Shown here one piece after another: positions 1 to 56,485 of a stretch of DNA of 64,000 bases. The notes under the pieces were generated by a model. The model made no database searches, was not told the DNA's origin, and saw nothing but the letters and a program-made list of their open reading frames with translations. Positions within the stretch are counted from its first letter, which is position 1, and every line of letters starts with the position of its first letter. Source of the DNA: Rhizophagus irregularis (taxonomy: Eukaryota; Glomeromycota; Glomeromycetes; Glomerales; Glomeraceae); NCBI RefSeq assembly GCF_026210795.1, contig NC_089439.1, positions 1,798,001 through 1,862,000 on the forward strand, given 5' to 3'. The position numbers were made by a program, and so were the translations under genes.

Positions 1-560
1 CCAATCAGCTACCTGATTGGTGACCGATTGGTGCCTGATTTTTCGCTTTTCGACCTGTAAAACCTTCAAAATTTTTTTGATTTTGTTTGTTTTTAACAAA
101 ATGTATCTAACGTTTCAATTTTTTATTTTTTTTAGAACTGCAGCTTTTTGGATGATTCACGGACGGGTAAAATTAATTTTTTTTTTAATTTATTTTAACG
201 AAACGTGACTAACGTTTCATTTTTCTTTCTTTTTTAAGTCTGCGGATTTCTTTTTCTAAACGAGATTTCAAAGAACTTTTAATATTATGGTAAGTTTTGC
301 AACGAACGTTGCGAAACTTCATTTATTTTTTAATTTTTTTTAGAAACGTTTACTAACGTTTCTTTAAATTCTTTTTGTAGGTCTTTTTTTTGGAAAACAG
401 GAAAAAGGGTAAATTTCAAAGCATAATTTTACGCTTCGAAACTTTTAAAAAAAATTTTTATTTTTATTTTTATAAGGAAACATTTCTAACGTTTCCTTTA
501 GAATTTTTTTGTGGTCTTTTGGGGGTAAGTTTCTTTTTTTAAAAAAAAAGGATTAATTTT
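1..560 (+). repeat. Intron-like tandem array, segment I-a
   Basis: Four to five intron-like units follow each other. Donors are seen at about 57 (GTAAAACC), 167 (GTAAAATT), 291 (GTAAGTTTTG), 409 (GTAAATTTC) and 526 (GTAAGTTTC); acceptors are T-runs ending in TAG or AAG at about 135, 238 and 380. Each intron-like stretch carries an inverted repeat around a CTAAC core, for example GAAACGTTTACTAACGTTTC near 341. The 'exons' between are about 30-55 nt and keep no common reading frame. The fourth acceptor has decayed to GTGG. The same units resume at 2290, 8867 and 11056, so this is one array opened by later insertions. It may be a noncoding spliced transcript or a repeat that only looks like introns. 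Confidence 0.7.
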
Positions 561-8866: not shown

Positions 8867-10160
8867 TTCTTTGGAAAACAGGAAATGCAAAGGGTAAGTT
8901 TTGAAGCACGCTTCAAAACTTATAAAAATATTTTTTTTTTATTTTTTTTATAAGGAAACGATTTTAACATTTCCTTTATAATTTTTGTAGGTCTTTCAGG
9001 GAAGTGCAAAAGTGCAAAGGGTAAGTTTCGAAGCGTTTCACTTCAAAACTTTTTAAGAAAAAATTTTATTATTTTTTTTATAAGGAAACATTCTAACATT
9101 TCCTTTATATTTTTTGTAGGTATTTTTTTGGGAAACGGGAAATGCAAATGGTAAGTTTCACTTCAAAACTTATAAAAATATTTTTTTCATTTTTTATAAG
9201 AAAACGTTTCTAACGTTTCCTTTATAATTTTTGTAGGTCTTTCGGGAAATGCAAAGGGTAAGTTTTGAAGCGTTTTTTCACTTTGAAACTTTTAAAATTT
9301 TTTTTTATTTTTTTTATAAGGAAACGATTCTAACGTTTCCTTTGTTTTTTTTTTGTAGGTCTTTTGGCTCGTTTTCGTTCCAGAATATTGAAAATGGTAA
9401 GTTTCAAAGTGAATGCTTCACTTTGAAACTTTTTAAAAAATTTCTTTTTTTAAAAACATTAGGAAACATTTCTAATGTTTCTATATGATATTTTTTTGTA
9501 GGAATTTTTGACTTCGAATCTTGGATATTATGGTAAGTTTCAAAGATTTGAATTATAAAATTAATTTTTTTTAATTTTTATTAGGAAATGTTTATTAACG
9601 TTCCTTTATTTTTTTTTTGTAGGTTCAGAAGTTGAGTTTGAGAGTTTAAAACAGTAAGTTTCATTAAAAATGAAACTTATATTTTTTTTAATTTTTTTAT
9701 TAAAAAACTTTCTAACTGAACGTTTTCTTTCTTTTTTGTAGTTTGGGAATATCTGGTATTAGATACACAGTAATTTTGCACGAAACTTTTTTTAAAAAAT
9801 TTTTTTATTAGGAAACGCTTACTAACATTTCCTTTATTCTTTATTTTTAGATTTCAGGATATCTGGATAAGGGCTAACATAAAGTTAAGTTTCATTTCGT
9901 CATGAAACAATATCTTCAAGAAACGTTCTAACTGAACGTTTTCTTTTTCTTTTGTAGGTTCAAAAGTATGGAATTGGATACGGGCCATGAAATGGTAAGT
10001 TTCGTACATTTCATTACGAAACTTCCATTTTTTTTTGTTTTTTTTCTTAATTAAGAAATGTTCTAACTGAACGTTTCTCTTTTTTTTGTAGGTTCTTTTC
10101 GGCTCTAAATTTTCTTTCGTAGGTCAGCTTGGTACTTGGATTTTTCTTTATAGGGAAATG
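8867..10160 (+). repeat. Intron-like tandem array, segment I-c
   Basis: About ten units. Donors of the form GGGTAAGTTT or ATGGTAAGTTTC stand near 8894, 9019, 9149, 9258, 9395, 9531, 9652, 9892 and 9993; acceptors are T-tracts ending TTTTGTAG near 8989, 9120, 9236, 9358, 9501, 9623, 9740, 9958 and 10092. Each holds a hairpin whose loop side contains TAAC or CTAAC (GGAAACGATTCTAACGTTTC near 9325, GAAATGTTCTAACTGAACGT near 10054). 'Exons' of about 25-45 nt often end in AAATG or AAAGG just before the donor. No frame is kept across units. Confidence 0.75.
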
Positions 10161-11055
10161 TAGAAGTGCGCTCCAGATGAATCTGGTCAATCCGTCATCC
10201 AGATGATCACGTGACAGATCAATCCGGATTAAAAAAATCGGATCATCGGATTATCCACGGATTGACCGGATTGATTATAATTCCGGCCAGAATTAAGTAA
10301 TCAGCATGGAATTATCCTTTTTAGGGTATGAGTAACATTACACAAATCCAAAAAAGGCAATTTTATTTCCCAGCAAAAATGAAATTTTGGGTTTTACAAG
10401 AATCCTAAAAAGGATATTTTTCACTGATTATTTAATTTCAGCCGGAATTTATGATTAGGTATTTAACTGTTGTCATGTGATGCAAGGGTATGTCGATCAT
10501 TTCCAATTTTGGAAATACCCATTCCACAAAAAACTAGTTTTTCTAAATTTAGTTTCCGGTCATGTAACATAAAACTTCCTAAAAAGGGGCACGGTTAAAG
10601 CGGGGCAGGGCTGCAGTGGCTCAAAAAATTTTGTACCGGATTCTCCCAACGGCACATAGCGGGAAAATATTTACCCACAGTGGCACAGCCATCACAACAG
10701 TGTCGCTGTGGCGTGGCAGGGCCGGTCCTTTGTGACGGTGTAGTTTGTACCAGCACTCGCCACACCCACGAAGGACCTCTCAAGCTCAGCCACGGCTCAA
10801 CGTTGTGCTGGCTGGGTGCCACAGGTAAATATTTTACTGCACATGCCATATCGGGAGAATCTGGAAAATTTTTTGAGCCACATTAGCCCCGCTTTAGCCA
10901 TGCCCTTAAAAAGGAAATTTTTTTGTTGATCCTGTATAGGATTGATGGTCATCCATCCAGTCTATTTGACGGATTTATCTGATCAATCTGAATCTGCCTA
11001 TTAGATGGATTGATTCTAGGATGACTGGATTGACCAGATTCGGAGCCTACCTCTA
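10161..11055. mobile_element. 895-bp non-autonomous hAT-like element
   Basis: Ends TAGAAGTGCGCTCC and the complement of TAGAGGTAGGCTCC, both running on into GAATCTGGTCAATCC. An 8-bp duplication GGGAAATG lies at 10153-10160 and 11056-11063. Subterminal ATCCGGATT and GATTGACC words are repeated. No coding region. A second element (10588-10906) lies within. Confidence 0.9.
10588..10906. mobile_element. 319-bp GC-rich inverted-repeat element
   Basis: Left arm GGCACGGTTAAAGCGGGGC and right arm GCCCCGCTTTAGCCATGCC are inverted copies; pairing extends over about 90 bp (GTGGCTCAAAAAATTTT on both arms). The 8-bp repeat TAAAAAGG flanks it at 10580-10587 and 10907-10914. It is far more GC-rich than its surroundings, so the two overlapping open frames here are shadows of a fold-back element, not genes. 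Confidence 0.85.
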
Positions 11056-11531
11056 GGGAAATGAGTAAGTTTCATAATATAACATGAAACTTTCTTTAAT
11101 TTTTTTTTTAGGAAACGTTAATTAATGTTTTCTTTTTCTTTTCTGTAGGTTTTGGATTTCAGTTTGGGTTAACGGTGAGTTTTGCAGATTTGTGAAACTC
11201 ATTATTATTTGTATTTTCTTTTATTGAAAACATATTGTTAATACCCATATTTCTTTTATTTGTAGACTTCAGAATTCTGGGCTAAAGATTGGTGAGTTTC
11301 ATAACATTTTGTTACGAAACTTTCCTAATTTTTAATTGATATTAGATCGATCGGATCGTAAGTTTTGTAATTACAAAACTTCTATTTTCATTTTTTTTTT
11401 AATATACTGTAAACCATTTTCTAATATTTCTTTTATTTTTGTAGGCTTCGGTTAGTTTTTGGAATATTGGATAAGATTGTGTAAGTTTTGTTAACAAACC
11501 TTTTAATTTTTGTTTTTTCTTATTTGAAACC
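11056..11531 (+). repeat. Intron-like tandem array, segment I-d
   Basis: About five further units with donors at about 11064 (GTAAGTTTC), 11173 (GTGAGTTTTG), 11293 (GTGAGTTTC), 11360 (GTAAGTTTTG) and 11480 (GTAAGTTTTG) and acceptors TCTGTAG near 11149, TTTGTAG near 11266 and TTTGTAG near 11445. Hairpins are weaker and the units more diverged than in segment I-c. Confidence 0.65.
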
Positions 11532-12044
11532 CACCTTGTTATTGTTGTGTCACCAGGGGCACTATGTCAACAGAAATTTAGTACGTTGATCGCTTAAAAA
11601 TCTGTGGCAATCCAATTTAACAAGAGGGATTAATTTTTATATATTTTACATTAGATAATGTATTTATTTGTATTATTAACTGTATTTATTTATAAATAAA
11701 TTAACAATATTTTAACAATAAATGAAATTGTAAATATATTAATAATATACAATAATATATGTTAATAAATTAGATTAATACTACAATGTACGATGACTAA
11801 AAAATACCATTGCTATATGCGTTTTAATATCAATATACGCATTTTTATACATTGTATATACATTTTTAAACTATCATTGTTTTACTGTATATTGTTTTAC
11901 ACTTAAATGAGTGTTGATTTACATGTTTTTCAACGTTTTTAGGTGGCGTTAATTGACAAAGGGTTCGTTTTCCTACGTTTTTTGGCATTGAGCAACACAT
12001 GGTGTTTTTTAACACTTTATATGACTGTTTAAAACTTGCTGATG
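11532..12044 (+). mobile_element. Terminal region of the first array-carrying element
   Basis: This stretch matches the reverse complement of 35351-35880 almost throughout, from CACCTTGTTAT and TGTGTCACCAGGGGC to the shared end AAACTTGCTGATG at 12044. In the other copy that same sequence is the exact outer end of the 35351-39006 element. The array therefore appears to be the body, and this the right end, of a related element. Its left end is not recognisable in the window. Confidence 0.7.
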
Positions 12045-23190: not shown

Positions 23191-23569
23191 GATTTCCAGG
23201 TATTTCACATGCACTGGTCAAAATCAAAACTTTTGACCATTAAGAACTTTCGGCATGATTTTTGCCGATTGGTTATGTGATTCGTCACATTTTTTGACCA
23301 ATGGCAAAAATCAATAAAATCAATCACAAATCAACTGATACTGATTGTTAAACGAAAGCTTGTTCAGTCTTTTGGTGAAAAATCAACTTATACCGATTGT
23401 TATATGTAAAATTGTTCCTTTAAGATCATTCAGTAAAATTATGCCAGTTGGTCATATAAATCAGCACAATTTTGCCAAATTTGCCAAATGAATAACTAGT
23501 TGGTAATAATTCGGCAAATCAGACTGAAATCATCAGATGATCCAGATCGACATTTTACAGGTCTTTTTT

Positions 23570-23690
23570 AAACAAACTTTTTTAAACTTTTTTAAACTTT
23601 TCGCATCTTTTTCTCTCTCTCTTTCATCCTTTTACCTTCCCTTTCTTACACCTTAGTTCTTCATGTAAACATACACATTAAATTCGGTTA
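23570..23690 (+). promoter_or_regulatory. Pyrimidine-rich leader before array II
   Basis: A CT-rich tract (TCTTTTTCTCTCTCTCTTTC and on) ends about 70 bp before the first intron-like unit. The same arrangement, on the other strand, precedes array III (38340-38500). In fungi CT-rich tracts often mark RNA polymerase II start regions; the role here is inferred. Confidence 0.4.
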
Positions 23691-25270
23691 TTTTTATTAA
23701 ATCAAAAACTTTCTTTAAAAAAACATTTTTTAACGTTAAAAAATGTTTTTTTTTATATTTTTTGCAGGAAATTGGTTCCGGCATAGATACCGTTTTCCTA
23801 GGTAAAGTTTTGAAAGATTTTCAAAACAATCTTTAAAAAATACATTTTTTTAATAATAAAAAATGGTTTTTTTTATTATTTTTTATATAGGAAATCGGTT
23901 TCGGCGTGGATACCGAATCCCAAAGTTAAGTTACAAAAAATTTTGAAACTTTAATATAAAAAATGTTAAACACTAACGTTTTTTTTATTTTTTTGTAGGG
24001 ATATCGGTTCCAGCGTAGATACCGAATACCATAGGTTAGTTTCAAAAAAAAATTCGAAACTATTAAAAAAAACGTTATATTAACGTTTTTTTTATTTTCT
24101 TTTGTAGGGAATCGGTTCTGAAGTTGGATACTGTTTTCCAGGTAAAGTTTTGATAAATTTTCAAAACTTACTTTAAAAAAAACATTTTTAACTAAAAAAT
24201 GATTTTTTTTTATTTTTTTTCTATAGGAAATCAGTTCCGGCGTGGATACCAATATTCCAGGTAAAGTTTCAAAAAATTTTGAAACTTTAATAAAAAAAAC
24301 GTTAATTTATAACATTTTTTTTTATTGTTTTTGTAAGGAATCGATTCCGGCATGGATACCATTTCCCAGGTAAAATTCCGAATGATTTTCGAAACTTACT
24401 TTAAAAAAAAACGTTTTTAGCTAAAAAATGATTTTTTTTATTTTTTTTTATAGGAAATTGGTTCCATTGTGAATACCGTTTTCCAGGTAAAGTTTTGAAT
24501 GATTTTCGAAACATTCTTTGAAAACGTTTTTTAATAAAAAAAACGTTTTTTTTTTTATTTTTTATTTAGGAAATCAGTTCCAACGTGGATGCCGATATTC
24601 CAAAGTAAGTTTCGAAACAAATGTTTTGAAACTTTTTTAAAAATGTTTTTTAATAAAAAAAATGTTTTTTTTTATTTTTTATTTAGGAAATCGTCTTCAA
24701 CGTGAACACCGATATTCCAAGGTAAGTTTCAAAACAAATGTTTTGAAACTTCTTTTTTAATAAAAAAAACGTTTTTTTTATTTATATATAGGAAATCGGC
24801 TCCAACGTGGATACCGTTTCCCAGGTAAAGTTTTGAAAAAAAATTTTTAAAACTTACTTAAAAAACGTTTTTTAATATAAAAAACGTTTTTTTTATCTTT
24901 TTTGTAGGAATTCAGTTCTGGTATGGATACCGATATTCCAGGCAAAGTTTTGAAAAATTTTCGAAACTTCCTTTAAAAAAAAACGTTTTTATACTAAAAA
25001 ACGTTTTTTTATTAATTTTTTTTATAGGAAATCAGTTCTGGAGTGGATACCAATATTCCAGGTAAAGTTTCGAAAAATTTTCAAAACTTTCATTTTTTTA
25101 TTAAAGAATCGGTATACTAACCGTTTCTTTATTTTTTATTTTAGGTTTTCTTTGGATTTTCGTTGAATAGGTGATAAGTTTATTTTCGAAACTAATTTTT
25201 TTTTAAAGAATGGTTTACTAACCGTTTTTTATTTTTTTTGTTTTGTAGGTTTTCCGGATCTTTATGTTTA
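23691..25270 (+). repeat. Intron-like tandem array II
   Basis: About 13 units of 110-120 bp. The 'exons' are highly similar, around GAAATCGGTTCCGGCGTGGA followed by TACCGATATTCCAG, 33-36 nt long. The 'introns' start GTAAAGTTTTGAAA or GTAAGTTTCGAAAC and end in T-tracts with TAG (TTTTTGTAG, TTTTATAG, ATTTAG). A first hairpin (GTTTCGAAA / TTTTGAAAC) follows the donor and a second (AAAACGTT-TTTTAAT-AAAAAACGTTTT) precedes the T-tract. Exon length is not constant modulo three, so a spliced product would not keep frame. Donors stand near 23811, 24033, 24140, 24260, 24369, 24486, 24605, 24720, 24822, 24940 and 25060. Confidence 0.8.
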
Positions 25271-27380
25271 TTGGGTCAGTAAGATAGGATGGTGGTGGAT
25301 AGTGGTTAATGTGGTGGGTGCGTGTAGTGAATGGTGGACGATAGTAGATTAGATATTTAATATGTAATTTTAATATGTAAAGCAAATTAATAGAATTCAA
25401 TTGCTGATCTGCATGTGATCGATAGAATTTATATAATAAAATGCAGCGCAACATTTATATATAAGCCATGTCGATCATGTTTTTATATCAAATAAAATTC
25501 AACCATATTGTTATACAATTGCGTAATTTAACACCTGCAATATACGTTTAAGATCTTAGAAAAAAAAAATTTTTTATAAAAAGTTTTTTTTCTTTGCAGT
25601 TTATAAAGTTTTATATGTAGGAAATAGAGATTTCATAGTATTTACTACTATTTTACTTCTATGGTATAAACTCTTTAACTTTTCTTTGACGCTTATAAAA
25701 CTTTTTTTGATTATTATTTCTGTCAACTATTACATTTTTAATAACACTATGCACTTTTATATCTCTTTTTCTTTCACAAATATGTCCAGTTTGTAAAAAA
25801 TATGAATATAATGAAATATATGAATAATAAAAGGACTTTTATTAAGTTTTAGCATAATTTTAAAATAGGAATAGTTATCTTGAATTTTTTTCTTAAAAAA
25901 TAATAAACAAGTCATATAAATATGGACATAATAATAAAGTTCTGATATAATAGCGCCAGTTGCAACAAGTTTTTTGGGAGTTATGTATATATTTGATGTT
26001 GTTGTTTCTTGGGAAAACAGAGATTTCAAACGGCATTTTTTTTATTAATTAACATAACGCCACATTTTACTATATAAATTCTATTGATTACATGCGGATC
26101 GGCAATTAATTAATAAATTATTAAATTATTATTACAAATTAAAATTAACTAAATATACAAAATCACAAAATCGGTAATAATTAGGTTGATTTATATTACC
26201 AATCGTCAATTTGATTTTGCCAATTTGTTACCAATTTTACTGACCGATTTGTTGACAAGTGGCAGGCGTTACAGTGCAAATCACCTATAAAATTAGTTGC
26301 CGATTTTTTTGATACTGATCGGCTAAAATCAGACCAAATTTTGTCCAACATTCGGCAATTTAAAATTTTGCCGAAATGGACTATTTCGACCAGTGATGTT
26401 TGCAAATCTACGCATATAATTGCACTATTTATTCTCCTGATGTTATCCTTACAAAGAAATTACTTGTCAAACATCCCACTACGTTGCAAACTAATGGCTA
26501 TTGGATCTGAAATGATACATAGCTTAGCAATTTTATATTTGTGGATGTTTCAATGGAATAGATTGCGTTAATTTTATTTTTACTTTATAAGTTCAAAAGT
26601 TAGACCAACAGTTATAATTATTAATATTGTATAAAATAGTTAAATTATGGAGTATAAATACTTTCCATACCTTTACCATTATATTGTATGCAAAACTTTC
26701 TATGAACAATTATTAATATTATGAAATAGTCGTAAACCTACGAATATTAATGAAATTATGAAATATAAATAACTTCCATACTTCTACTATATTGAAAGTA
26801 CGCGTTCATTTTTCCAGCAACTGTTACAAAGCTTTTTCATGTATAATTTATTAATATTATAAAATATTCATAAAGCCTATAAATATATATAAATACTTTC
26901 CATACTTCTGCTAGTCTTCTGCTACGCAAATGTACAATGAGCGGTCCTTGCAAAATAGAGCGTATAGAGAATATTAAGTTTGTTTATTTAATTCGTGTTT
27001 AGCTATTTTTAGATGATTACATGAACATATGTATATGCCATAATAGGTTAATTTATCAAATTTACTAGATTTATAAAATTAATTCGTAATCTGTGAGTTG
27101 AATTATATGATTTTGGTAGAGTCCTAAAGAATTCTGACCTTGACTAAATCAAATTGAAATCAGATTTTGATCTATTAAAAAAAAATTCTTGCATGATAAA
27201 TATAAAATTAAGAGAAATATGCATGACGTGTTGATAATATATACTATATAAATAATATAACAAATAACTAGAGGTTAATTTGTAACACTTTTCACAAATT
27301 TATAATTTCTTATGATCAGCACTCGGAATCAGACTTGATAGAAATAAATTTAACTTTCCAAATATTGCGAAAGAGAAAAA
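25271..27380. other. Gene-free AT-rich region
   Basis: Only short frames without motifs. From about 26590 to 26930 a block of about 120 bp containing ATAAATACTTTCCATAC and TATTAATATTATAAAATA is repeated three times with decay. Around 26170-26410 there are CGGCAAAAT-type inverted words of an unidentified element. Confidence 0.5.
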
Positions 27381-35154: not shown

Positions 35155-35350
35155 GTCAAAAATCATAACTAAGTCTTCTACTAATTCCCATAAGGCCTTT
35201 CTTCTGGAATTGATGGCACGTTCACTCTGAGAAATTGAAGTGTCCTCAAGATATTCGCTTAGGAGTAGGTCAACTCTCTCTCTTTCTGATTGAGCTGCTT
35301 TAATATTTGCTTTTAATTTCATTTCATCAATAATATTTCCACTAATATTT
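35155..35350 (-). pseudogene. Transposase-like gene, middle C-terminal piece
   Basis: From the boundary at 35350 the minus strand reads NISGNIIDEMKLKANIKAAQ, then SERERVDLLLSEYLEDTSIS, ALWELVEDLV and IFDMTD at the hAT-2 target. Upstream it connects in phase with FGVHFIKQ at 39007 if the 35351-39006 element is removed; downstream with 31402. The length and the RERxDLLLSEYLDDTSIS style match C-termini I recall from repeated Rhizophagus proteins (memory, unchecked). Confidence 0.75.
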
Positions 35351-36061
35351 CATCAGCAAGTTTTAAACAGGCGTATAAAGTGTTGAAAAACACCATGTGT
35401 TGCTCAACGCCAAAAAACGTAGGGAAACGAACCCTTTGTCAATCAACACCACTTAAAAATGTTTAAAAATGTGTAAAACAACACCCATTTAAGTGTAAAG
35501 CTACACATAGTAAAACAACGATAGTTTAAAAACGCGTATACAATGTATAAAAATGCGTATATTGATATTAAAAACACGTATAGCAACGGTAGCAATGGTA
35601 TTTTTTAGTCATCGTACGATAGTTAACTTTAATTGTAGTATTAGTAATTTATTAACATATATATTATTGTATATTATTAACGTGTATATTTTAAAATTTT
35701 TAAATTGTAAAATATTGTAAATTTATTTATAGAATACAGTACAATACAAATACAATATCTAATCATGTAAAATTGTAAAAATTCATCCTCTTGTTATAAT
35801 TGGATTGCCGCGGATTTTTAAGTGATCAACGTACTAAAATTCCGTTGACATAGCGCCCCTGGTGACACAACCATAACAAGGTGGAAATATGAACTTTCCC
35901 TCGATAATTATATTAATATTATGCTCCTTCATGATAAAAATCAAAACCAAATCTCGTCGTATGTGTCTTAACAACATCAAGTGGTTTAATATTCACATTG
36001 AGGATTGAGGAATTATCTTCCATTATTCATTCGCTCAAGGGTTGAAATAACCATCAAGCTG

Positions 36062-37160
36062 ACCTACAAAAGAAAAATCCAGAGCGCCGAAAAGAAAATC
36101 TAGGCCTACAAAAAAGAGAAACGTTCAGTTAGAACGTTTCTTAAAGAATAAAATTAAAAAAAATAATTAAAAAAATGTAAGTTTCGAATATCGAAACTTA
36201 CCATATTGGCATATCCAAGTCCCAAAGCCGAAAGAATCGATACCTACAAAAAGAAAAGAGAAAATTAAAAAAAAATAAAAAAAATAAAAATAAAAAACGT
36301 GTTTTATTCAAAACTTACTGATTCTTTGGGTTTTCCGTTCTTCGGAAGCCCACCCGAACCTATAAAAAAAAATACAAGAACGGTTAGTTAACCGTTCTTA
36401 ATAATAAAAAAATAAAAAAAAGTTAAGATTCGTACCATACCTTACGAATCTTTGGGTTTTCCGTTCTTGGGAAGCCCACCCGAACCTATAAAAGAAAAAA
36501 GAAAGAACGGTTAGTAAACCGTTCATAATAATAAACAAAGAAAGAAAAAAATAAAGATTCTTACGAATCTTTGGGTTTTTCCGTTCTTGGGAAGCCCACC
36601 CGAACCTATAAAAGAAAAAAGAAAGGAACGGTTAGTAAACCGTTCCAAAATATTAAAAAAAAACAAAAACCAAAATTCGTACTCGTACTTACGAATCTTG
36701 GTTCTCCCGTTCGGGGGTCAAGTCCACCCGAACCTATAAAAAAGAAAGGAACGGTTATTAGTAACCGTTCATAATATTAAAAAAAAAAAAAAAAAACAAA
36801 ACCAAGATTCGTATATACTTACGAATCTTGGTTCTTTTCTGTTCTTCGGAACCAAGAAGCCGCCCGAAACCTAAAAAATAGAAGTAAAGAACGGTTATTA
36901 GTAACCGTTCATAATATTTTTTTAAAAAAAAACAAAAAAACAAAACCAAGATTCGTATATACTTACGAATCTTGGTTCTTTTCCGTTCTTCGGAACCAGG
37001 AAGCTGCCCGAAACCTAAAAAGAAAAGAACGGTTATTAGTAACCGTTCATTAATAATATTAAAAAAAAAGAAAAAAAATTAAACCAAGATTCGTACTTAT
37101 CTTACGAATCTTGGTTTTCCGTTCTTCGGAACTCGGAAGCCCACCCGCTGACCTAAAAGA
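36062..37160 (-). repeat. Intron-like tandem array III, splice-like part
   Basis: Minus-strand units of about 115 bp. 'Exons' of about 40 nt are nearly identical: GTTCGGGTGGGCTTCC, then AAGAACGG and AAACCCAAAGATTC. The donor GTAAG follows directly and lies in a hairpin (AAGATTCGTA / TACGAATCTT). A second hairpin, GAACGGTTTACTAACCGTTC, holds the branch-point-like TACTAAC in its loop, then a T-tract and TATAG. On the plus strand the repeats appear as CCTATAAAA ... CTTACGAATCTT near 36360, 36484, 36604, 36733, 36866 and 37012, with a related variant at 36065 and 36241. Confidence 0.85.
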
Positions 37161-38200
37161 AGAAAGGAAAAAAAAATGAAAAAAAATTACGAAACATTAA
37201 TAAGCGTTTCGTTAAAAAATGTAATAAAAAAAATCGGAACGTTAGCCAACGTTCCGATTAAAAAAAATCAAAAAAAAAAGTTTGAAACGTTAAAAACGTT
37301 TCGTTAAAAAATGAAATACAAAAAAATCGAACGTTAGCTAACGTTCCGATTAAGAAAAATAAAAAAAAAATGTATTTTCGAAACGTTAAAAAGCGTTTCG
37401 TTAAAAAAAATGAAAAATAAAAAAATCGGAACGTTAGACAACGCCTTCCGAAAAGAAGTTAAAAAAAGAATAAATGAAACGCTTTTTCAACGTTTCCGTT
37501 AAAAAAGTAAAATAAAAAAATAATCGGAACGCCTAACGCTTCCGATTAAAAAAATGTTAAAAAAAATTGTTTCGAACGCTAAAAACGCTCCGATTAAAAA
37601 AGAAAAAAATATTTTCAAACGCTAAAAAACGCTTCGCTAAAATGAAAAAATCGGAACGCAACCAACGCTCCGATTAAAAAAATAAAACAAATACTTCAAA
37701 CGCGTTAAAACGCTTTCAAAATAATTTTAATGAAAACTGAACGCTAGCCAACGCCTGATTAAAAAAATGAAAAAACAAATATTTCAGAACGCTTAGACAA
37801 CGCTCCGATTAAAAAATAAAACAAATATTTTGAAACGTTAAAAAATGTTTCAAAATATTTTTAACGAAAAAATCGGAACGTTAGCCAATGTTCCGATTAA
37901 AGAATTTTTTAAAAAACAATATTTCAGAACGCTTTTCAACGTTCCGATTAAAAATGAAGTAAAAAAATTAATCGGAACGTTAGCCAACGTTCCGATTAAA
38001 AGAATTTAAAAAAAAAATAATATTTCGGAACGTTTTTCAACGTTCCGATTAAAAATGAAATAAAAAAAATAATCGGAACATTAGCCAACATTCCGATTAA
38101 AAGAATTTTTAAAAAAAATATTTCGAAACGTTAAAAAACGTTTCGTTAAAAAATGAATAAATAGTTTCGCAACGTTTCGTTGCGAAACTCACCAAACTTT
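37161..38200 (-). repeat. Array III, hairpin-only part
   Basis: About 20 hairpins alternate between two stems: GAAACGTT-AAAAACGTTTC and ATCGGAACGTTAGCCAACGT closing with TCCGAT. Spacing is about 50-55 bp with A-runs between. Splice-like donors are absent except at the promoter-proximal end, where GCGAAACTCACC gives a donor-like GTGAGTTTCGC at 38190. This may be the oldest or most decayed part, or a distinct structural block. Confidence 0.75.
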
Positions 38201-38327
38201 TTTCCGTAAAAGGCTCATATCTCCAGAATTAATGACCTTATATTACGGAATTTATCCACTTATTACATTTTCTGTGAATGGATCCGTGAAGGCTCATTTT
38301 TACGGAGTTTTTATAGAAATAACGGAT

Positions 38328-38345
38328 AAAACTTTTATAAAGGAA
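38328..38345 (-). promoter_or_regulatory. TATA box ahead of array III
   Basis: Minus strand CCTTTATAAAAGTTTTATCC has TATAAA at 38339-38334, about 130 bp before the array, and lies just after a 150-bp pyrimidine-rich tract (38500-38340). It suggests polymerase II transcription through the array. Confidence 0.45.
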
Positions 38346-38670
38346 AGGGGAGAAAGGGGAGAACGAAAGGGAAAAGAACGAAACGAAAGGGAAGGGGAGA
38401 AATAAAGGGTAATGGGAAAATGAAAGGGAAGGGGAGAACGAAGGGGAGAACGAAGGGGTAATGGGAAAACGAAAGGGAAGGGGAGAACGAAGAAAAGCAA
38501 AAAAAAATTAAGCTTTGCTAAAAAAAGCTTAATTTCTTTTTTTGCTATACCGCAGTCCGCAGCGGTAATCCAGTATCACGTGATACATGTGATATAGAGT
38601 ACGGCCATTATAGTATTGCCGAAATGATTTTTTTTTTAAATACTAATTTTAATAAATGTATATTATACTT

Positions 38671-38745
38671 AAATTAAATAGTACAGTGGTTAGATCGTGA
38701 GATATGATATTGTAAGTTGAGGTAACCGGTTCGGTTCCTAAGGTG
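38671..38745 (+). repeat. tRNA-like (SINE-like) sequence, copy 2
   Basis: A-box-like TAGTACAGTGGTTAG at about 38679 and B-box-like GGTTCGGTTCC at 38728-38738, one base from the GGTTCGANNCC consensus. Similar over about 70 bp to the minus strand at 22383-22452. No convincing anticodon arm. Confidence 0.55.
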
Positions 38746-39006
38746 AGTAAAAATAAATAAATAAATATAATTTAATTAAAATATACACATGTAATCATAT
38801 ATATGCGTTAATATACAGTGCGTTGAACAACAATGCATAATGTGTTGCACTACAAATTAGAGTTGAACGACGCGTATATTAACATTATGCGCTGATATAC
38901 TCCAATATATGGGTGTTGATTAATATTGTTAATCATGTTGAACAACTAGCTGGTGTTGATCAACGCGTATACTGGTGTGAATCAACGCTTTTCAAACTTG
39001 CTGATG

Positions 39007-41773
39007 TTTGTTTTATAAAATGAACTCCAAAGGTCTCAAGCGTTTCATCAAAACCAAAACAAACAGGCTTTTGATTTTCACTTCCATCATCATCAATGTT
39101 CTTTGGTATCCTAAATGCTCCAACGTGTTGCAAAATTTCATTCAATTTTGGATACTTAGTTAGCGTAGAGAGATGTTGAGCGATAGCTACTGCGTAATTT
39201 GATTTACCCGCACTTGGAAAAAGAGGTGATGCTGCAGCAAGAGCATCTCGTTGCAAATTATGATTTCCAATTCTCATTCCTATTTGGTATGCTTTCCATA
39301 TTCCAGCCCACTGATAATAAAGATACCAAATTTTTAGAAAAATATTGGTGTCAGTATTTTCGTTCATTATTTCAGACAAATTAATATTTTTTCTCTTTGT
39401 AAATATATTAATTGAAACTCCAACTGCCACCCACAAAAAGTCTAAGACTCTAGATGTCATTCGATAATCAACGGCTGCCTCAAACTTGTCCAAAAATTGA
39501 ACACCTAATCTTCTTGCTAAATTTAGAAGTCCGTAACTAGAGAACAACACAATTAGAACTTAACAGAAGTCTTTGGAGGGGTGCCATTGTCCGAGCAATG
39601 GTCTCAATTGAGGCCATTGCTCTTGGCATCTAACTAACCGACGATAAATAGCTTCATCAGCAACTATATCAAGGTATGCAGTTTCTTGCAAATTAAAATC
39701 GGCTTTGTACATAGTGGCAGCTCCTAAAATTGCTTGGTCTGAATTTGGATTATCCCCTGGTTCAAGAATTACAACGTGGGGAGAAGGACCTTTACAGCCA
39801 TGTTCAAATTTCTCTAGTATAGCTTTTTTAATTATTTCCACATCAAAATTTTGATTGTATTCTAAATTGCCTTCATTTGTACTTCGAAAATCTAGCAAAT
39901 TTTCTAATATACTTTGAAATCCATCCAGAGCTTCTTGCATAGTAAAATTCATACCAAATATACGATTGTCTTCTTCCAAGGTAATTAATTCTTCTTGACA
40001 CGTTGCCAGATAATTGGGAATTACTGATTGGAATGCCATTCTCAAGGTTGCATGTGAGCTGTTTCTTGTAGTGTCATATATATTTCCAAAGGAGAATGTT
40101 TTTTGTTTGAAATCTATGTTATCTATGACTGCAAGATTCCATATATCTAATTTTTGGTATAATCTTTGTGTAGGAACAGCATTATTAATTCGCTCCTTTT
40201 CTAGATTTCTTTCATGATGTTCGCTATGTCCTACTATATTCCATAATGACAGGAGACGATGAAGTGATGATAATAATTTTGGTTTGCGTGCCAGACTGCT
40301 TAGCACATTAGTTAACCAAATATTACATGAAGGAAATGCTATACCAGTGAGAACAGAAACAAAAAATGTAACTATTTTCATAATTATATTGTCAGGCAAA
40401 GTTTTAATGGCTTGTCCTCATTGTTTTCTTTTTCTATTATTAACAGCTAGTTTTCGTTTATAGATCTCTATTAACATTCCCCCCAAAAACTCTGTGATGA
40501 AATTTGGAAATGCATGATAATATTCAAAAAGTGATCCTGGTGAGCTCAGTAATTCTTTTTTCTCATTCGTTGCTTCACGTGATTTCCAGAGCTTAATTCT
40601 GAATTTTCGTCCCAAACTTTCACAATTAATTGTTTCTATATCAACATCTTGTAATTTATTTTTTGAAAATGTATCAAGAAAAAGAATTTGTATGACGAAA
40701 AGGCTAAGAGTTTCGTCAGATTTTGTCAATGAAGATGTAGCTTTAGTTAAAGGTGTAGGGAGAAAAGGGAGAATAGCTTCTACAATAGAATTCAAAATTT
40801 CTTTTTTTTTTGAATCTTCATCTGTATGTGAAATCTTAATAAGCCAATTTGCAATAAAATTGATTCCTTTTGTGACATCTTGTTCATGTAATCTATCACA
40901 GTTTGATTTTTTACCTCAAACTGTACGTTTGTGAATATGCCCGCCCAATCGTTCATAACAACTGCAACAGATACATCTTGGTTTATTTATTTTTAAAGAT
41001 TGTTCTGACAGGAAAGTTTCCTTCAATGCATTACAATATACCAATCCATTGCAGGGTACTTGAACATTTCGTCCATTAACCAACCAGGAATGGTTACTGC
41101 ATCCTTCCCCTCGGCTATAGAAAGTTATATATTGTTTGCATCCTATACATCTTCGATGTTGAATTATAGCATCTGAAGTCGTAAATTCTTTTGATATTTT
41201 ATCTTTAGGATTGTGAATTTGATTTTGATCATATAAAAAATGTGAATCACAAACTCCTAAATAATTATTGTTGACTTGTTGAACTGCATCTCGATCTATT
41301 TGCCATGTTCCATATAAATTTTGTATCTTTCTAAGCTTGTAAGTTTCGCCACATCGTTTAATCGTACCTTGAATATTATCAATTATTACACAAGGTGTTA
41401 TTGACGAAACAGATTGTACATTGGATTGTTTGCAAGTGGGTCCTCCATCAATATCATTTGGAATTATTTCATTCCTTTCTCCTTCACATTCATTGTTGGT
41501 GTTTTGTTCATCATCACTATTATTGTTTTGTTCTAATAACTCTGCCTCAATTTCACTATCATATTTACCCGCATATGATTCTATTTCACTATCTTCTTCA
41601 TTTTCATGAGCTAACATTTCATTTAACGCATTGCTAAACCTAAAGGAAAGCTGGTCAAAACTATCCTCCTCAAAAAATTCTCCAAATATTTCGTTTTCAC
41701 CATCCCTTCCAACATTTTTCAATCCAAATTCTCGTGGTAACATAGAATTATTGTCAATTTCAAAGTTCAACAT
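39007..41773 (-). pseudogene. Cysteine-rich transposase-like gene, N-terminal three quarters
   Basis: One frame runs from the ATG at 41773 to 39007 without any frameshift but with three stops: 40916-40918 (TGA), 40418-40420 (TGA) and 39560-39562 (TAA). N-terminus: acidic, then a zinc-binding-like region (CIGCKQYITFYSRGEGCSNH, CNGLVYC, CICCSCYERLGGH). Middle: FPSCNIWLTNVLSS, helical. Late region: YLDIVADEAIYRRLVRCQEQ, then LRPLLGQWH, possibly an RNase-H-like acidic site, and a C-terminal SNYAVAIAQHLSTL. It continues at 35350 and 31402, so the original protein was near 1170 residues. I relate it to a repeated Rhizophagus family with transposase character; that is recollection, not a search result. 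Confidence 0.7.
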
Positions 41774-54349: not shown

Positions 54350-56485
54350 AGGGCTAATATTTACGATCACGTATTATTACGGAATATTTTGACCGTAATA
54401 CTTCGGAACATTTACGATCACGTATTATTTTGATCGTAATGCTTCAGAACAATTGCGATATCGTAATTCTACGAAATATTTTGACCATAATGCTTCAGAA
54501 CATTTTCGATCACGTATTATTACGGAATATTTCGATCGTAATGCTTCGGAATATTTATGATATCGTAATTCTATGGAATATTTTGATCGTAATGCTTTGG
54601 AACAATTACGATATTGTAATTCTATGGAATATTTCAATTGTAATACTTCAAAACATTTACGATATCGTAATTCTACGGAATATTTTGATCGTAATGAATC
54701 GGAACATTTACGATATCATATTATTACAGAATACTTTGATCGTAATGCTTCGGAACATTTACGATCACGAATTATTTCGGAATATTTTGATCGTAATACT
54801 TCGGAACATTTTCGATCACATATTATTTCGGAATATTTCGATCATAATAAATCAGAACATTTACGATCACGAATTATTTCAGAATATTTCAATCATAATG
54901 CTTCGGAATATTTACGATATCGTAATTCTATGGAATATTTCGATCGTAATGCTTCGGAACAATTGCGATATCGTAATTCTATGGAATATTTCGATCGTAA
55001 TACTTTGAAACATTTTTGATCACGTATTATTTCGGAATATTTAGATCGTAATTAATCGGAATATTTACGATATCGTATTATTACGGAATACTTTGATCGT
55101 AATGCTTCGGAACATTTACGATCATGAATTATTTTGGAATATTTCGATCGTAATGCTTTGGAACATTTTCGATCACGTATTATTTCGGAATATTTCGATC
55201 ATAATAAATCGGAACATTTACAATCACGAATTATTTCGGAATATTTCGATCGTAATGCTTTGGAATATTTACGATATCGTAATTCTATGGAATATTTCGA
55301 TCGTAATGCTTCAGAACAATTACGATATCATAATTCTATGGAATATTTTGATCATAATGCTTCGGAACAATTGCGATATCGTAATTCTATGGAATATTTC
55401 GATCGTAATGCTTTGAAACATTTTCCATCACGTAATTCTACAGAATATTTTGATCGTAATGCTTCAGAACATTTACGATCATGAATTATTTCAGAATATT
55501 TTGATCGTAATGCTTCAGAACATTTATGATTATGTAATTCTATGGAATATTTCGATCGTAATGCTTCGGAACATTTTTGATCACATATTATTACAGAATA
55601 TTTTGACCGTAATACTTCGAAACATTTTCGATCACGAATTATTTTGGAATATTTCGATCGTAATGCTTCGAAACAATTGCGATATCGTAATTCTACGGAA
55701 TATTTCGATCGTAATGCTTCAAAACATTTTCGATCACGTAATTCTACAGAATATTTTGATCGTAATACTTCAGAACATTTACGATATCGTAATTCTACGA
55801 AATATTTTGATCGTAATTAAGGTTGCTTGTCTAAACCTCTTCAAAATTCTACGATTAGTTTCGTCAAAATTTTACTATAGATTTATTATAGTTTCGGCAG
55901 AGTTTTGGCAGTTTCGGAATTTATAATAAGTTTTGGCAGTTTCACCTTTCTCCAAAGTTTCGCCAGTTTTTTAGTATAACTTTAATATAGTTTCGGCAGA
56001 ATTTCGCTTTTCGGTGAAACGCCATCTTGCCTAAACCTCTAGTTTCAGCAAGCAACCTTAATCGTAATGCTTCGAAACATTTTTGATCACATAATTCTAC
56101 GAAATATTTCAATCGTAATGCTTCGGAATATTTACGATCATGAATTATTTCAGAATATTTCGATCATAATGCTTCGGAACATTTACGATCACGTAATTCT
56201 ACAGAATATTTTGATCATAATACTTCAGAACATTTTTGATCACGTATTATTACGGAATATTTTGACCGTAATGCTTTGAAACATTTTCGATCACGAATTA
56301 TTTTGGAATATTTTGATCGTAATGCTTCAGAACATTTACGATATTATAATTCTACGGAATATTTCGATCGTAATGCTTCAGAACATTTTCGATCACGTAA
56401 TTCTACGGAATATTTCGATCATAATGCTTTGGAACATTTACGATCACGAATTATTTTGGAATATTTTGATCGTAAAATTACGTAG
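54350..56485. repeat. 51-bp satellite, about 36 copies
   Basis: Consensus GAATATTTCGATCGTAATGC, TTCGGAACATTTACGATCAC, GAATTATTTCG, 51 bp. Because 51 is divisible by three, two frames stay open for up to 190 codons as 17-residue repeats (MEYFDRNASEHLRSR-like and NISIVMLRNIYDHVIL-like). It is broken at 55818-56060 by a MITE. The open frames follow from unit length and are probably not genes. Confidence 0.92.
55818..56060. mobile_element. 243-bp hAT-type MITE, copy 1
   Basis: Ends TAAGGTTGCTTG and CAAGCAACCTTA, 8-bp duplication ATCGTAAT at 55810-55817 and 56061-56068. The interior has TTTCGGCAGAGTTTTGGCAG-like repeats. Copy 2 is at 57995-58238. Confidence 0.92.

Follow-up and report, generated by a model that had tools for sequence, protein, structure and literature searches.

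Units that resemble introns, repeated in tandem and with their splice signals placed on hairpins, raise several questions at once: are the signals more than a product of chance? What carries such units through the genome? And is it their shape or their letters that is maintained? They occur in a stretch of 64,000 nucleotides of Rhizophagus irregularis (contig NC_089439.1, positions 1,798,001 to 1,862,000; the window hereafter), where an earlier note, made from the sequence alone, described an array on the minus strand at 36062-37160 (array 4) and three others (arrays 1 to 3).

In array 4, the location and strand of the units were as described and the quoted hairpins were found there. From 38192 to 36106 on the minus strand, nine introns are predicted (Table 1), a giant one and eight mini introns of 75-96 nt; the exons between the mini introns measure 48, 48, 41, 41, 40, 41 and 42 nt, and each unit follows the order GTAAG, hairpin, CTAA-bearing hairpin, T-tract and TAG. 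The description fell short in its limits, since the first intron extends past them, and in its context, since the array is only the middle of a 3656-bp mobile element, a carrier that had been overlooked. Directly upstream of predicted exon 1, at 38354-38492, lie GAAGGGGAGAAC repeats, pyrimidine-rich on the array sense strand, which are possibly a promoter. Within the giant intron (37170-38160 and its copies), the copies differ heavily at CG, in the form of A to G before CG and of single-base gaps, which possibly reflects base-calling or polishing error at methylated CpG; judging that the changes resemble such trouble, we discarded the variation in this intron as a test of covariation.

Table 1. 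Features of the window (window coordinates; introns, exon and reading frame are predictions)
Feature	Position	Strand	Remarks
Array 1	1..560	+	unit types as in array 2 and L029/L031
Second element of the array 4 family: array 2 and 3' end	8867..12044	+	interrupted by insertion 10161-11055
Second carrier, holding array 3	23212..26395	+	ends CACTGGTC..GACCAGTG, ATG on both sides
Non-autonomous PlavakaB-type transposon with array 4, 3656 bp	35351..39006	-	2-bp target duplication AA; sharp ends in dispersed copies
5' terminal inverted repeat CATCAGCAAGTTT	38994..39006	-	
3' terminal inverted repeat CATCAGCAAGTTT	35351..35363	+	
3' region	35351..35884	-	83% identity to 12044-11531; partly common to transposase-bearing relatives
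End of predicted exon 1	38193..38218	-	starts at first ATG of spliced frame
Predicted spliced open frame, 141 codons		-	first ATG in 38193..38218; stop ends at 36054
Predicted giant first intron, 1040 nt	37153..38192	-	full of hairpin units of ~46-48 nt
Predicted mini intron 1, 91 nt	37015..37105	-	
Predicted mini intron 2, 96 nt	36871..36966	-	
Predicted mini intron 3, 89 nt	36734..36822	-	
Predicted mini intron 4, 87 nt	36606..36692	-	
Predicted mini intron 5, 79 nt	36486..36564	-	
Predicted mini intron 6, 86 nt	36360..36445	-	
Predicted mini intron 7, 75 nt	36244..36318	-	
Predicted mini intron 8, 96 nt	36106..36201	-	

A parser that accepts only runs of three introns or more, each with a 5' site, a branch motif, a T-rich tract and YAG, recovered 99 introns: 8, 6 and 8 in arrays 2, 3 and 4 of the window, and 15, 11, 13, 15 and 11 + 12 (the last in opposed arrays) at five further loci, L029 to L033. 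No intron run came up in the controls, which comprised 30 shuffles of each locus in six-mer blocks, both strands of 34.8 kb of background from the window, and the antisense of the one-way arrays (arrays 1-4 and L029-L031; L032 and L033 have arrays on the other strand or on both strands and do not serve as antisense controls). Array 1 yielded no run by the parser, and its units were recognised by eye. The signature of U2-type introns (5' site, branch motif, T-rich tract and AG, ordered on one strand) is thus present in 99 introns and in none of the controls.

Hairpins accompany both the 5' site and the branch-point motif. The 5'-site hairpin scores 17.8 on average (1.4 when shuffled) and the branch-point hairpin 16.2 (0.5 when shuffled), and of the 99 introns 69 reach a 5' hairpin score of at least 12, 79 have a branch hairpin and 54 have both. 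Eight host introns from Cpn60/CCT genes, delimited by homology gaps and splice motifs (two of ten were excluded for a length above 130 nt), and one intron of a transposase-bearing relative scored 0 for both hairpins; the mean folding z computed alongside this comparison was -4.29 versus +0.60. Eight 5' sites that the parser had put at GCAAAG were re-set for hairpin scoring where GTAA(G/A) or GTGAG follows, one in array 3 staying in place. The 5' hairpins follow two plans: in array 4 the stem spans the exon-intron border, and in the type represented by array 2 it is intronic, from about +1/+3.

What, then, carries array 4? Its element has sharp ends at 35351 and 39006, shown by at least nine dispersed copies, and the 3' ends of at least 12 copies, counting the one in the window, match the query at 98-100% identity; these numbers are lower bounds, because the genome DNA searches scored the best 40 candidates, and the copy on C1 is partial. 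CATCAGCAAGTTT ends, with CATCA..TGATG termini, and 2-bp target duplications were found in 14 of the 14 elements checked (the window copy, whose duplication was judged by eye from its flanks, eight near-identical copies, the array elements L029, L030 and L031, and the 7.8-kb relatives L027 and L028), which agrees with the definition of PlavakaB given in a 2025 account as CATCA..TGATG ends with 2- or 3-bp duplications (PMC12730594). L027, with the same ends, contains a Plavaka transposase frame (PF18759, E 5.3e-34), and L028 has matching frames; the 5' end of the window element and the greater part of its 3' region recur in both relatives, neither of which matches the array. Since a same-ended relative bears a Plavaka transposase frame, the window element is regarded as non-autonomous and PlavakaB-type. 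The array elements themselves contain no interior open frame of 150 codons or more and no transposase, so they would be mobilised in trans by the Plavaka transposase. Contigs C1-C3 account for eight of the 3' ends listed. Upstream of seven of them, at a distance of no more than 1.4 kb, lies an intron-start hairpin (lists compared by eye), and the eighth (on C2) has its partner 5' end 8.6 kb off, a size akin to the transposase-bearing kind. The mobile unit is the whole element of 3.5-4.9 kb with its many introns, and the earlier suspicion that this is no passive satellite was right, because the arrays are transposon cargo. As a separate observation, L027 and L028 hold a second gene in the orientation of the array, with KAASGG repeats; in L027 it has no Pfam match above the curated cut-off.

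The other arrays of the window extend this picture. Array 2 belongs to the same transposon family as array 4. It contains a foreign insertion (10161-11055) with the 8-bp GGGAAATG on either side, a duplication length that suggests a hAT-like element, and the order of the units indicates that arrays 1 and 2 are probably one element split by insertion, array 1 being its 5' part. Array 3 rides in a second carrier that appears EnSpm/CACTA-like by its ends, with CAC..GTG termini and a 3-bp target duplication seen in the window copy only. The similarity of late array 3 units to array 4 makes an exchange of the hairpin-intron module between carriers likelier than an independent origin. Nested in the array 3 carrier is a further element with inverted ends, roughly 711 bp long (25399-26109), which by our count recurs in at least 24 other places with 88-98% identity. 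L032 (C10) and L033 (C25) have arrays that face both ways and make up long inverted repeats (the arms of L033 are 89% identical). Elsewhere in the window, 54426-56475 is occupied by a long tandem repeat of 51 bp in which there are long open frames.

The explanation that we consider probable, though well short of certain, is that a non-autonomous transposon of the PlavakaB type, related to CACTA, carries the array as its cargo. Transcription would start on the 5' side of the element, cross the array and continue into the shared 3' region, the host spliceosome would remove the introns unit by unit and leave an essentially non-coding RNA of micro-exons, tandem duplication would multiply the units and transposition would spread the element as a whole. 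A spliced micro-exon RNA had been among the readings first suggested for the arrays and is likely, many of the predicted junctions being used in annotators' models as well.

The annotators' models imply a different product, a protein encoded by a gene of tandem micro-exons. The spliced window array is open over 141 codons and matches 74 proteins (E up to 1, best 9.2e-28), all from R. irregularis and labelled hypothetical or unnamed; when the L029 frame, which represents the other array type, was searched, a single protein of R. irregularis was retrieved (E 1.5e-7). Peptides of seven residues across the predicted junctions are present in annotated proteins for 41 of the 99 introns (41/46 in array-4-type loci, 0/53 elsewhere), compared with 5/99 when the acceptor is shifted by 4 nt and 5/99 when the donor is. 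The control with retained introns, nonetheless, reached 33/99, perhaps because GT opens exon and intron alike and an inner donor is used in some models, and the proteins had been found by a spliced query, so these peptides test the annotators' models and not RNA; both points also weigh against the transposon-cargo explanation. Gene models of the DAOM197198 assembly are described as built with RNA reads (PMC10234402), read support for the array models being a separate matter. As for the frame itself, stop triplets in the exons are fewer than in shuffles (65 vs 104.6), but the antisense is equally depleted (55 vs 97.3), exon lengths modulo 3 are distributed as 34/33/20, near-identical copies differ in exon length in ways that change the frame (e.g., 41, 39 and 38 nt), and identical junctions occur in annotated proteins in three frames. 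On the grounds of exon lengths, both-strand stop depletion and frame changes between copies, a kept reading frame is unlikely, and we regard a protein-coding gene as quite improbable. Two families of repeat-bearing genes were also considered and rejected: the SP7-like effector genes, characterised in the source by one conserved intron before the repeats (PMC11333574), as every repeat is here followed by its own intron, and the AGL repeat-protein genes, whose structure, as presented in PMC8786786, is another.

Is pairing kept when the letters change? Pattern searches over the 146.7-Mb, 32-contig genome found 626 exact border hairpins (AAGATTCGTAAG..TACGAATCTT), 688 exact intron-start hairpins (GTAAGTTTCG..CGAAACTT, the middle of the pattern being free) and 291 exact branch hairpins, with 0 matches to the reversed pattern of each; the two 5'-hairpin patterns together make 1,314 exact matches, some palindromic sites being counted on both strands. 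Covariation in the intron-start hairpin was read from 100 listed matches of the 688, 68 of them distinct and 48, with at least nine free bases, used, in a sample that presupposes perfect outer arms and counts at least one site from both strands. Among these listed variants, the first free pair is Watson-Crick in 48/48 (A-T 21, C-G 17, T-A 10; shuffle mean 17.3, maximum 29), the second in 46/48 (33.9 and 40) and the third in 35/48 (20.4 and 31), while for the fourth, at 24/40, the shuffle maximum is not exceeded (mean 18.1, maximum 25). Pairing is kept in this class through two-sided change, with which RNA selection and DNA-level palindrome repair both fit. The commonest branch hairpin variants show no compensatory excess (two-sided 1 vs 2.3 expected, broken pairs 20 vs 18.5 expected), which counts against the transposon-cargo explanation, and the other three branch classes have 12 vs 7.1, 25 vs 11.1 and 1 vs 0.4 two-sided cells, in a pair count that took near-palindromes on both strands. 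Compensatory stem changes, which the earlier note had named as a check, are found in the intron-start class and show no excess in the commonest branch hairpin. Its claim that the architecture rather than the letters is conserved holds for the intron-start variants and for the same layout built with unrelated stems in two transposon types, but fails for that same branch hairpin.

The two-sided changes could likewise come from palindromes that are multiplied and mended at the DNA level, or bound by a transposase, the intron-like letters being incidental. The stems are palindromic DNA, and the giant intron is a tandem row of hairpins without 5' sites, both of which favour this reading. Incidental letters, however, would not line up 99 times on a single strand as 5' site followed by branch motif, T-tract and TAG, nor would they give junctions used by gene finders, so that the probability left to this reading is low.

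A host gene for small RNAs encoded in introns, with non-coding exons and processed intron hairpins, is less probable again. It draws on the ten copies of the window family, in which introns vary less than exons at CpG (8/52 vs 22/47, p 0.0009) and at other G/C (3/102 vs 17/106, p 0.0016), with A/T at 9/545 vs 7/146 (p 0.055), and on a layout similar to that reported for tandem-intron snoRNA host genes (PMC11608373). When three odd copies are removed, the CpG contrast persists (6/52 vs 19/47, p 0.0012) and the G/C contrast fades (2/102 vs 8/106, p 0.1), but the contrast is not repeated in other comparisons: arm against arm, L033 shows it reversed for G/C (introns 32/169, exons 10/129, p 0.007) and without significance for CpG (25/78, 12/62) or A/T (41/749, 19/227), and L029 against array 2 and L031 is mixed. 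We make no claim of selection from these data, whose inconsistency also counts against the transposon-cargo explanation. The stems, furthermore, are short, and an Rfam search of 35300-39100 (E up to 1) returned 11 weak matches, none reaching its gathering score. The last reading, a source of introner-like introns that jump singly into host genes, is hardly credible, in spite of known introners derived from DNA transposons (PMC9860276), as all four loci chosen for a lone perfect branch hairpin, a small sample, turned out to be pieces of arrays and the mobile unit observed is the whole multi-intron element.

For the transposon-cargo explanation, the role of the hairpins is a matter of guesswork. 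Tentatively, each T-rich intron may fold locally, present its own 5' site and branch point, and prevent mis-pairing among near-identical neighbours, giving a compact and fully spliced transcript; against the explanation as a whole, many of the units have their 5' site itself base-paired, and this might impede the binding of U1. More doubtful still is the thought that the spliceosome forms part of the transposon's survival kit, whereby rows of self-folding introns would keep the transcript spliced and let it hide from, or feed, RNA silencing, or soak up splicing factors, as a module passed between two transposon types and selected for its shape. In R. irregularis, Plavaka is one of the superfamilies reported to have a larger number of expressed families in colonised tissue, and the fungus is credited with 40 AGO-like genes (PMC11075540), so a link with silencing is worth considering.

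How do these elements relate to known systems? With the Plavaka (PlavakaB) transposons of fungi they have ends, 2-bp duplications and a transposase-bearing relative in common, but they are filled with intron-like units in place of long open frames, a cargo that we did not find in the passages on Plavaka of PMC12730594 and PMC11075540. Introners are likewise intron sequences multiplied by a mobile element, although an introner is one intron that inserts singly in a gene, whereas here a row of introns and micro-exons moves together. The internally symmetrical stwintrons of Hypoxylaceae, as portrayed in PMC8469720, are also proliferating fungal introns with inverted-repeat symmetry; they are nested introns of ordinary genes, their terminal repeats measure 45-55 nt and they lack a target duplication, unlike the present tandem rows on a DNA transposon with two small internal hairpins per intron. 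The mammalian SNHG14 / SNORD115-116 host gene has long rows of similar introns too, which according to PMC11608373 carry snoRNAs, while none rises above the Rfam threshold here. The portions of the open-licence literature consulted hold no description of such arrays.

The origin of introns, and whether transposons produce them in bulk, is a long-standing question, and a transposon family whose near-identical copies carry rows of intron-like units in a recurring architecture allows their mass multiplication and spread by transposons to be put to the test in an arbuscular mycorrhizal fungus. The authors of the DAOM197198 assembly report long-read RNA, small-RNA and methylome data for it (PMC10234402), which permit direct tests of splicing, silencing and structure. 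As regards annotation, dozens of R. irregularis proteins now labelled hypothetical or unnamed may turn out to be transposon arrays in spliced form.
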